Source: Phycisphaera sp.
Lineage (GTDB): Bacteria > Planctomycetota > Phycisphaerae > Phycisphaerales > Zrk34
Length of the DNA stretch: 64,000 bases
NCBI GenBank assembly: GCA_016125285.1
Contig: WGMA01000020.1
Span: 124,001 to 188,000 of the forward strand
Direction of reading: 5' to 3'
This document shows, piece after piece, positions 16,099 to 42,362 of this stretch. The stretch's first letter is position 1. The number at the start of each line of letters is the position of its first letter. Under the pieces are notes generated by a model. That model worked only from the letters and a program-made list of their open reading frames with translations, was not told the DNA's origin and did no database searches. The position numbers were made by a program, and so were the translations under genes.

Positions 16099-16234
16099 AA
16101 ACCCCTCTCCCCCAGGTGGGGGAGAGGTTGGGTGAGGGGGTCGATTCATCGGACAGGGAAAACATGCGAAAAACAGTGAATGTATTCGAAGGCTTCACCC
16201 TCACCCTGGCCCTCTCCCTCAAGGGAGAGGGGAT
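16099..16234. repeat. Paired stem-loop repeat, family B copy 1
   Basis: Two palindromic units face each other. The left is CCTCTCCCCCAGGTGGGGGA and following, ending TTGGGTGAGGGGG (16099-16143). The right is TTCACCCTCACCCTGGCC followed by CTCTCCCTCAAGGGAGAG (16193-16234). About 50 bases of unrelated sequence separate them. The same composite recurs at 31238-31374 (opposite orientation) and 32053-32189. It looks like a REP/BIME-type interspersed repeat and could also end transcription from the SGNH gene. Confidence 0.85.
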
Positions 16235-16249
16235 TCTGGATAGACTCTG

Positions 16250-28581: not shown

Positions 28582-28673
28582 AATGACCAATGACCAAGTC
28601 CCAATGACCAATGTCGCACCCATCATGCCTTGGCTCTGAGTCATTGGTCATTGGTGCTTGGTCATTGGTCATT
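28582..28673. repeat. Heptamer inverted repeat, family E copy 2
   Basis: The left arm (28582-28613) is made of AATGACC/AATGACCAA units; the right arm (28641-28673) is its near-perfect inverse, made of TCATTGG/TTGGTCA units. Arms are about 32 bp with a 27-base loop. The unit TTGGTCA has period seven. The right arm overlaps the 3' end of the epimerase gene and supplies its TGA stop at 28662-28664. Confidence 0.92.
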
Positions 28674-29995: not shown

Positions 29996-32044
29996 TTATG
30001 CGATCCCCAGCGCCTCCAGCAGCGCGTCGACCTCGCTGTAGTCGGCGATGATCAGGTGCGCGCCCGCGTGGATCAAACGCCGTCGCTTCGACACGCTCAG
30101 CTCGCCGGGATGGTCTTCGTCGCTGGCGATGCCCACTGTGGTCGCGCCGCGTTGGCCGCCCTCGCGGATCTCGACGGGGCCGTCGCCGAACACGACGACG
30201 CTTCGCCCGTCGCCCAGATCGTTGATGAGCTTGTCGAGCACGATGCGCTTGGCCTCGACGTTGACGTCGCCGACCGCGCCGCGGATGTCGGTGAACCGCG
30301 TGTCGAGGCCGAGCAGCTCGGCGTCGGCGCGGATGTCGGGCTCGTCGGACCCGCTGGTCAGGTAGAGCTTGAGGCCGCGCGCCTTGAGCGTGTCGAGCAG
30401 GTGTTCGACGCCGCGGATCATCACCGCGTCGCGATCGATGTCGCCGGCGTTCATCGCCTCGACTCGCCGGCGGACGACCTCGCGGATGCGCTCGACGTAG
30501 ATGCCCTTGTAGCCGTGCTCGTCGAGCATGTCGGCCTCGGCGACGTAGCCGTACTTGCGGATCACCGGCAGGAACTCGCGCATCTGCACGAGCGTCTGGA
30601 TGCCGGTCGTGCGGTCGATCAGCTCGTCGATCTCGGCCTTGATCTCCGTCAGCTTGTCGGGCGCGACGTCCGCCGGCGCTGTCCCGCCGAGCAGGGCGGT
30701 GAGCATCACGTCCTGCATCACGTGCTCCCACCCGCGCCGCAGCGTTACGAGCGTGCCGTCGTGGTCGAACACCGCGGCCTCGATGCGCAGGTCGTCGGCC
30801 AGCGGACGCACCACCTCGATCCGCGTGCCCGGCAGGTACGTCGCGGCGTCGGGGTTGTCGGCCAGGTCGGGGTGGTACGCCGGTTCGAGATCCATCATGT
30901 GCTTGAACTCCGCGGCTCGGGCGCGCACCTCGTCGGGCGAGGCGGTGCCGGTGGTCTTGAGCTTGGTCACGGTGATCGACGCGGCGAGCATCGCCAGGCG
31001 TGCGGCCTCCAGCGGCGACGCGCCCGACGCCAGCGCCGCCGACAGCGCCGAGATCGTCGTGTCGCCCGCGCCGACGGTGTCGATCGGCCCGGTCACCGGC
31101 ACGCCCGGCAGCGCGATCAGCCCGTCGTCGTCCGCGATCATCACGCCGTGCGGTCCGCGCGTGACGAACACGCACCGGCCCGTCCGCCGCTGCAGCGCCG
31201 TCGCGTGTCGCCACACCGTCGCGTCGTTTTCCTCCGAACTCCCTCTCCCTTCCAGGGAGAGGGCCGGGGTGAGGGTCTGACCGTCGGCCGAGGCGTTTGT
31301 TTCGCTCGCGTGCGCCGCGTCCGCCGATCCATCGCCCTCACCCAGCCTCTCCCCCACCTGGGGGAGAGGGGTTTGAGCCGCCACGCCGTCCAGCAGCCGC
31401 GCGGCCTCGGCGTCATTGAGCTTGAGCATCGCGCCGCGGTACAGGGCTGGGCGGTCGCGCGCATCGACGATGAATCGGCACGCCGGGTGCGCGGCGATCA
31501 CGGCGTTGATCCGTTCGATCATCGCCTCCGTCGACACGCCCGCCGGCACCTGCTGATTGAGGATGACCACGTCGGACGCGCCGGCCGCGGCGTCGAGCGC
31601 GGCGGCGAGGCGGTCGATCGTGTCGGCGTCGATGGCGTTGAACGCGCCGAAGTCGAGGCGGCTCTGCTCGTCGTCGGCGACGCACGGCTTGGCGTACACC
31701 ATCGTCTGCCAGTCGCCGGCGGTGAGCATGCCGGCGGTGTCGACGCCGGCGTCGTTGAGCAGGCGGACGAGCGCGGGGCCGAACAGGTCGTCGCCGACGA
31801 GCCCGACCGCGCGGACCGTGCCGACGCCGAGGTCGCGCAGGTTGACCGCGACGTTGCCGGCGCCGCCGGGGCTGTAGCGTTGGGAGCGCACGCGGAGCAC
31901 GGGTCGACCGGTCTCGACGGAAATCTCCGCGTCGTCGCCTTCGTCTGGGATGAGCCAGTAGGCGTCGAGGCAGAAGTCACCGAAGACCGCGACGCGTGCC
32001 CTCGTCAGGGCGGTCAGGCGAACTTCCAGCGTGTTGGGGTCCAT
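29996..32044 (-). CDS. Fusion of PfkB/RfaE-type sugar kinase and HAD phosphatase
   Basis: 682 residues. Residues 1-360 form a ribokinase-fold kinase: AVFGDFCLDAYW, YSPGGAGNVAVNLRDLG, VILNQQVPAGVS and the catalytic GPIDTVGAGDTTISAL (Asp328). The N-terminal layout is closest to RfaE/HldE heptose kinases. Residues about 420-682 form a HAD domain with motif I VFDHDGTLV (427-433), motif II YLTSGS and motif IV VVFGDGPVEI. Residues about 225-269 (from LPQVGERLGEGDG to LEGRGSS) come from an in-frame family B repeat and should loop out before strand CVFVTRGPHGV. Kinase plus phosphatase in one chain suggests consecutive steps on a sugar phosphate. The start at 32044 follows repeat B3. Confidence 0.8.
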   Translation of the reverse strand: MDPNTLEVRLTALTRARVAVFGDFCLDAYWLIPDEGDDAEISVETGRPVLRVRSQRYSPGGAGNVAVNLRDLGVGTVRAVGLVGDDLFGPALVRLLNDAGVDTAGMLTAGDWQTMVYAKPCVADDEQSRLDFGAFNAIDADTIDRLAAALDAAAGASDVVILNQQVPAGVSTEAMIERINAVIAAHPACRFIVDARDRPALYRGAMLKLNDAEAARLLDGVAAQTPLPQVGERLGEGDGSADAAHASETNASADGQTLTPALSLEGRGSSEENDATVWRHATALQRRTGRCVFVTRGPHGVMIADDDGLIALPGVPVTGPIDTVGAGDTTISALSAALASGASPLEAARLAMLAASITVTKLKTTGTASPDEVRARAAEFKHMMDLEPAYHPDLADNPDAATYLPGTRIEVVRPLADDLRIEAAVFDHDGTLVTLRRGWEHVMQDVMLTALLGGTAPADVAPDKLTEIKAEIDELIDRTTGIQTLVQMREFLPVIRKYGYVAEADMLDEHGYKGIYVERIREVVRRRVEAMNAGDIDRDAVMIRGVEHLLDTLKARGLKLYLTSGSDEPDIRADAELLGLDTRFTDIRGAVGDVNVEAKRIVLDKLINDLGDGRSVVVFGDGPVEIREGGQRGATTVGIASDEDHPGELSVSKRRRLIHAGAHLIIADYSEVDALLEALGIA
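31238..31374. repeat. Paired stem-loop repeat, family B copy 2, inside a coding region
   Basis: CCCTCTCCCTTCCAGGGAGA to GGGTGAGGGT on the left, CCCTCACCCAGCC to CTCCCCCACCTGGGGGAGAG on the right, inverted in order relative to copies 1 and 3. It lies wholly inside the kinase-HAD gene, in frame and without a stop, and encodes about 45 residues between two core strands of the kinase. Confidence 0.9.
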
Positions 32045-32052
32045 GGTTCGGG

Positions 32053-32189
32053 TAACCCCTCTCCACCGGGTGGGGGAGAGGTTGGGTGAGGGGGTCGCAT
32101 CTTCGCACGCGGCGTACGCCACGCGAACGTTGCAGCGTGTTCGATGGATTCACCCTCACCCCGGCCCTCTCCCTCGAGGGAGAGGGAGC
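32053..32189. repeat. Paired stem-loop repeat, family B copy 3
   Basis: Left unit CCCCTCTCCACCGGGTGGGG with GGTTGGGTGAGGGGG; right unit TTCACCCTCACCCCGG with CTCTCCCTCGAGGGAGAGGG. Same orientation as copy 1. It fills the gap between the end of the PagL-like gene (32195) and the start of the kinase-HAD gene (32044). It may act as a transcription terminator or processing site there. Confidence 0.88.
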
Positions 32190-32194
32190 CGCGG

Positions 32195-42223: not shown

Positions 42224-42328
42224 TTTGTCATTGATCATTTGTCATTGATCATTTTTCATTTGTCGCTTCCTGCGACGCCGGTTGTGCCTTACTTAAATGA
42301 CCAATGACCAATGACCAATGATAAATTC
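42224..42328. repeat. Heptamer inverted repeat, family E copy 5
   Basis: Left arm (42224-42263) of GTCATTGATCATTT units, right arm (42295-42328) of AATGACC units (ACCAATGACCAATGACCAAT). Arms are inverse with some divergence, loop about 31 bases. It uses the same TTGGTCA core unit as copy 2. It separates the TPR gene from rluD. Confidence 0.88.
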
Positions 42329-42362
42329 CCCTTGACGCCGTTTCTCACACCACCGCACCCCC

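Follow-up and report, generated by a model that had tools for sequence, protein, structure and literature searches.

An apparent REPIN-like palindromic insertion, in frame and putatively translated, in a PfkB kinase-HAD gene and in at least eight more genes of a planctomycete-type genome

The Rickettsia palindromic elements (RPEs), about 130-150 bp long, are located in frame in many unrelated genes, where the encoded peptide is apparently tolerated (Ogata et al. 2000, 2002, as reviewed in PMC10969869 and PMC3733652). Intragenic GTAG/CGTC REPs are known in several phyla including Opitutus terrae of the PVC group (Di Nocera et al. 2013, PMC3733652). Their host genes include dnaE2, dnaE and tRNA synthetases, and their dimers or grouped repeats produce inserts of 20-30 amino acids (PMC3733652). 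Such REPs are characterised by a GTAG or CGTC (TGTC, CCTC) tag at the end next to the stem and by a short loop, with a CCA tail in the CGTC type. REPINs, which are associated with RAYT transposases, are composed of two inverted stem-loop units and a spacer, and the entire element can fold into one hairpin (Bertels and Rainey 2011, PMC3116915).

The window analysed here is a stretch of 64,000 nt from a planctomycete-type genome, in which a paired palindromic repeat, the B element, lies inside a gene for a bifunctional kinase. The features are as follows.

29996..32044, minus strand: bifunctional PfkB-type sugar kinase and HAD hydrolase gene, 682 amino acids, ATG start
31239..31371, plus strand: B element core within the kinase gene, 133 nt, from the covariance model; residues ~225-269
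31239..31275, plus strand: left stem-loop and tail (CTCCCTCTCCCTTCCAGGGAGAGGGCCGGGGTGAGGG), from the sequence and the family alignment
31336..31371, plus strand: right inverted stem-loop and tail (CCCTCACCCAGCCTCTCCCCCACCTGGGGGAGAGGGG), from the sequence and the family alignment
32053..32190, minus strand: intergenic copy immediately before the start codon of the kinase gene, from the covariance model
16099..16235, minus strand: intergenic copy between two plus-strand genes, from the covariance model

In the B unit, a variable spacer separates two inverted stem-loops that carry GGGGTGAGGG-type tails. The family covariance model was built from 26 copies, including the kinase copy and the copy at 32053, and it matched the kinase copy at 31237-31374 (+) with 144 bits, among the best-conserved of the family. 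The first-pass annotation had placed a paired stem-loop at 31238-31374 and further copies at 16099-16234 and 32053-32189; all three were recovered, the latter two at 16099-16235 (−) and 32053-32190 (−), and the 16099 copy, being outside the 26 training copies, is the sole independent match among the three. The kinase copy is translated antisense to the consensus strand of the element. Its core corresponds to residues 225.3-268.7 of the 682-aa protein, in agreement with the ~45 residues (225-269) first assigned to it, and the encoded insert of ~44 residues is rich in Gly, Ser, Pro and Glu with a net charge near zero.

Both the PfkB and the HAD domain of the host protein were recognised by domain search. 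GAGD was found at residues 325-328 and DHDGT at residues 427-431, so that the kinase and HAD motifs are intact downstream of the insert as had been claimed. The gene consists of a single unbroken frame with its stop intact in the pseudogene check, and the protein retains every residue that is invariant in a 28-row alignment. The earlier view that the element disturbs neither frame nor stop was borne out.

Between the flanking conserved positions, 29-33 residues were counted in 83 of 83 orthologues (from Planctomycetota, Verrucomicrobiota, Acidobacteria, Bacteroidota and others), compared with 76 in the kinase-HAD protein. The net gain of ~44 residues is 132 nt, matching the element. Alignment residues 233-276 were occupied in less than 10% of the 83 orthologues, and in three orthologues of the same family 44 columns were missing exactly at the element site. 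An alignment of orthologues had been proposed as a check on residues 225-269, and this segment was missing in all 83. This comparison, with orthologues at ~39-52% identity, indicates that the kinase segment is an insertion relative to them. In the AlphaFold2 model (mean pLDDT 86.6), whose nearest solved fold is the HldA heptose kinase, residues 223-267 are the only stretch below 50 and are flanked by a helix ending at 219 and a helix starting at 270. The insert thus lies between two helices in the model and is the one part of it that is disordered; it is predicted to form a floppy surface loop, the arrangement that structure modelling had been suggested to look for.

The palindrome pattern was found at 62 places in the genome and a reversed control pattern at none, which argues that the palindrome is not a product of chance. 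In the 6.09 Mb genome, the covariance model matched well over 80 places. We classified 94 copies with flanks, the CDS calls resting on a codon model trained on DNA of the same genome. Nine of the 77 strong copies (≥90 bits), or 11.7%, were strictly intragenic (in frame and flanked on each side by 100 nt or more of coding sequence) and 68 were not, whereas the coding density of ~83% in the sampled DNA is the intragenic share expected under blind insertion. A genome-wide count had been called for, and it gave many intergenic copies with a minority inside genes. Copies at gene starts (C55:217890, C55:216474, C51:65190 and C15:1273) were excluded, as the real start codon could be further downstream. 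Enrichment of the 133-nt core in coding copies was suggestive only (p = 0.08). No Rfam family matched the element up to E 0.1, no phage match was obtained, and no papers with the encoded peptide or the repeat sequence were found. Contigs C78 and C76 (L145 and L153) begin with the same ~130 bases of non-repeat sequence (GGCAACTATGCAATATCCTGCTT) directly adjoining a B element, which may mark an assembly break or another repeat. Short tandem-like AATGACCAATGACCAA repeats occur in the window at 42296-42340 and 28582-28612.

The nine host genes encode the kinase-HAD protein, a YpdA-like reductase, a dockerin protein, a PMT-like glycosyltransferase, a YheT-like hydrolase, an unknown protein, a copper ATPase, the hydroxysqualene dehydroxylase HpnE and valyl-tRNA synthetase. 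Three of the nine (the dockerin protein, the PMT-like protein and the C52 protein) are without domain support on both sides of the insert. The valS gene is present as a single copy in the genome and carries a 47-residue element insert that is missing in nine relatives; its structure model was poor (pLDDT 51) and was set aside. The insert of the YpdA-like reductase is missing in four relatives, and in-frame insertion in HpnE and the hydrolase was shown by profile coverage. In-frame insertion happened in at least eight further genes of this genome. Shorter elements of a sister type are present in dnaE (single copy) and in a moeB/thiF gene, the dnaE case being weaker because the loop that holds the element is also variable in relatives.

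The element family was detected in 19 of the 61 genomes searched, the source genome included, and the other 18 belong to its family and order. Two copies lie in the same gene of different genomes:

C13:129279-129416, source genome: copper ATPase element, after HPIARAL
L298 1003-3588, relative G006: copper ATPase with an element of opposite orientation, same loop after HPIARAL

The seven other relatives in the alignment have nothing similar in this loop, and G006 alone among the aligned relatives carries an element there. The copper ATPase elements of the two genomes, opposite in orientation, are independent insertions. G006 is a single-contig genome with a further element inside lysS; its copies in the copper ATPase loop and in lysS make an assembly artefact less likely and point to a permissive site that was hit twice.

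All nine intragenic copies share one orientation and one reading frame. On that strand, two frames were open about equally often (50 of 70 and 48 of 70 copies with clear ends), with a mean net charge of +0.3 in the used frame versus +5.6 in the equally open unused frame. Intergenic copies, too, favour one orientation (19 of 26), and coding selection therefore does not account for all of the bias, and the orientation difference between coding and intergenic copies alone was not significant (p = 0.15). The chance of nine out of nine is ~4e-5 when the intergenic orientation bias is allowed for, and 7e-4 for the frame alone. The shared frame suggests selection for a harmless peptide, and we infer that harmful peptides were selected against, rather than that the peptide has a positive function.

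TT usually follows the right end of the element, and no target-site duplication was found at k = 3 to 7. Mobility is deduced from the dispersed copies and from the insertion relative to orthologues, and was probably conferred by a transposase, either of Y1 type (RAYT-like) or of another kind. Four Y1_Tnp matches are present in the source genome; they were rejected as the partner transposase because no element copy lies beside any of the four genes within flanks of up to 1.5 kb. Judged by eye, the number of Y1 matches in a relative shows no simple correspondence to its number of elements. In two relatives, a Y1_Tnp (IS200-like, HUH) domain was also observed in frame inside valS, in the same position in both:

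L284 1-2580, minus strand: valS with Y1_Tnp, relative G007
L280 1495-4575, minus strand: valS with Y1_Tnp, relative G004

The Y1 search also matched the valS loci of G008, G012, G016 and G020. The domain seen in G007 and G004 may belong to a whole REP-associated transposase within an essential gene.

We consider it very probable that a REPIN-like element was inserted, translated and tolerated in the kinase and in at least eight other genes. The miniature element would insert into the surface loop of the kinase gene without target duplication; because its net length is divisible by three and one of its frames usually lacks stops, it would become a translated linker of ~44 residues, predicted to be disordered and tolerated. 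Most copies landing in genes would presumably be lost by selection, and the surviving coding copies would be those in the common low-charge open frame. The kinase copy has a very stable predicted mRNA hairpin (−85 kcal/mol, z −6.3 by RNA fold), which could hinder translation of the kinase; the insert is nevertheless presumably near-neutral, the hairpin not blocking translation.

This hairpin, together with the size of a 44-residue insertion and a well-conserved copy that may be young, would fit an insert that inactivates or weakens the enzyme, the kinase gene being an early, undecayed pseudogene. We regard this as improbable, since the frame, the catalytic motifs and every invariant residue have been preserved, a like insert sits in the only copy of the essential valS, and nine of nine copies in one frame would be unexpected for random dead genes. 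That the segment was co-opted, as a disordered linker or an mRNA hairpin that serves the kinase in regulation or structure, has only a slight chance of being correct: the strong predicted RNA structure and the good preservation of both palindromes in the coding copy would suit it, but recent insertion explains the preservation too, the insert is missing in every orthologue, and the hosts of such inserts are functionally unrelated. There is almost no likelihood that the low-complexity segment goes back to an old loop of the lineage and merely resembles the repeat, as the variable DnaE loop with its sister-family element might suggest, for the kinase copy has 76-85% DNA identity to other genomic copies, the intergenic ones included, over nearly the whole 138 nt, spanning the palindromes and part of the spacer.

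A tolerated REPIN-like insertion therefore remains the reading we prefer. A broader version, in which one frame of the repeat was shaped or filtered as a portable harmless peptide that lets it colonise essential genes of a bacterium with a large genome and serves across the order as a recurrent source of disordered loops, is put forward tentatively and may well be wrong. The insert in the only valS, the single frame and the independent insertion in the same loop of a relative make selection on the encoded peptide testable. These genes are natural examples of proteins accepting 45-residue insertions, and peptides such as TPLPQVGERLGEGDGS should be recognised in annotation as derived from a repeat.

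Compared with the known systems, the B element resembles the RPEs in size and in its in-frame insertion within otherwise conserved genes, which was seen against orthologues in the kinase, valS, the YpdA-like reductase and the copper ATPase. Coding palindromes are best known from the reduced genomes of Rickettsia; here, at least nine insertions of one family occur in a 6 Mb planctomycete-type genome in which the copies are mostly intergenic. The RPE sequences appear unrelated to the B element. The paired repeat found between alx and sstT in E. coli strain 120899 (L320 599-706; model R1, 75 bits), possibly BoxC, has the same two-unit layout with a much shorter spacer. Its left unit is 97% identical to the B left unit over 38 nt and was matched at least once in 4303 of 5426 E. 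coli genomes (median five places), and none of the ten best-ranked E. coli places listed falls within an annotated feature. Like the GTAG/CGTC REPs, the B element forms inverted dimers, mostly intergenic, with a minority in genes such as tRNA synthetases and, for the sister type, dnaE. The unit ends in GGGGTGAGGG (CCTCACCC on the other strand), which judged by eye appears to be neither the GTAG nor the CGTC tag, and its inserts of 44-47 amino acids are longer than those of GTAG/CGTC dimers or grouped repeats. It is REPIN-like in having two inverted units and a spacer that can be folded as one hairpin (according to the alignment, the consensus fold and the kinase-copy fold) and in its many dispersed, mostly extragenic copies. 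Unlike in REPINs, a minority of the copies are coding and no RAYT gene flanked by the same repeats was seen around the four Y1_Tnp matches. The likeness to Rickettsia coding palindromes drawn by the first-pass annotation holds as a way of working but not as shown common descent, and it is not unique, other intragenic families having been published (PMC3733652). Coding palindromes are already on record; what is new here is another repeat family and its common reading frame.
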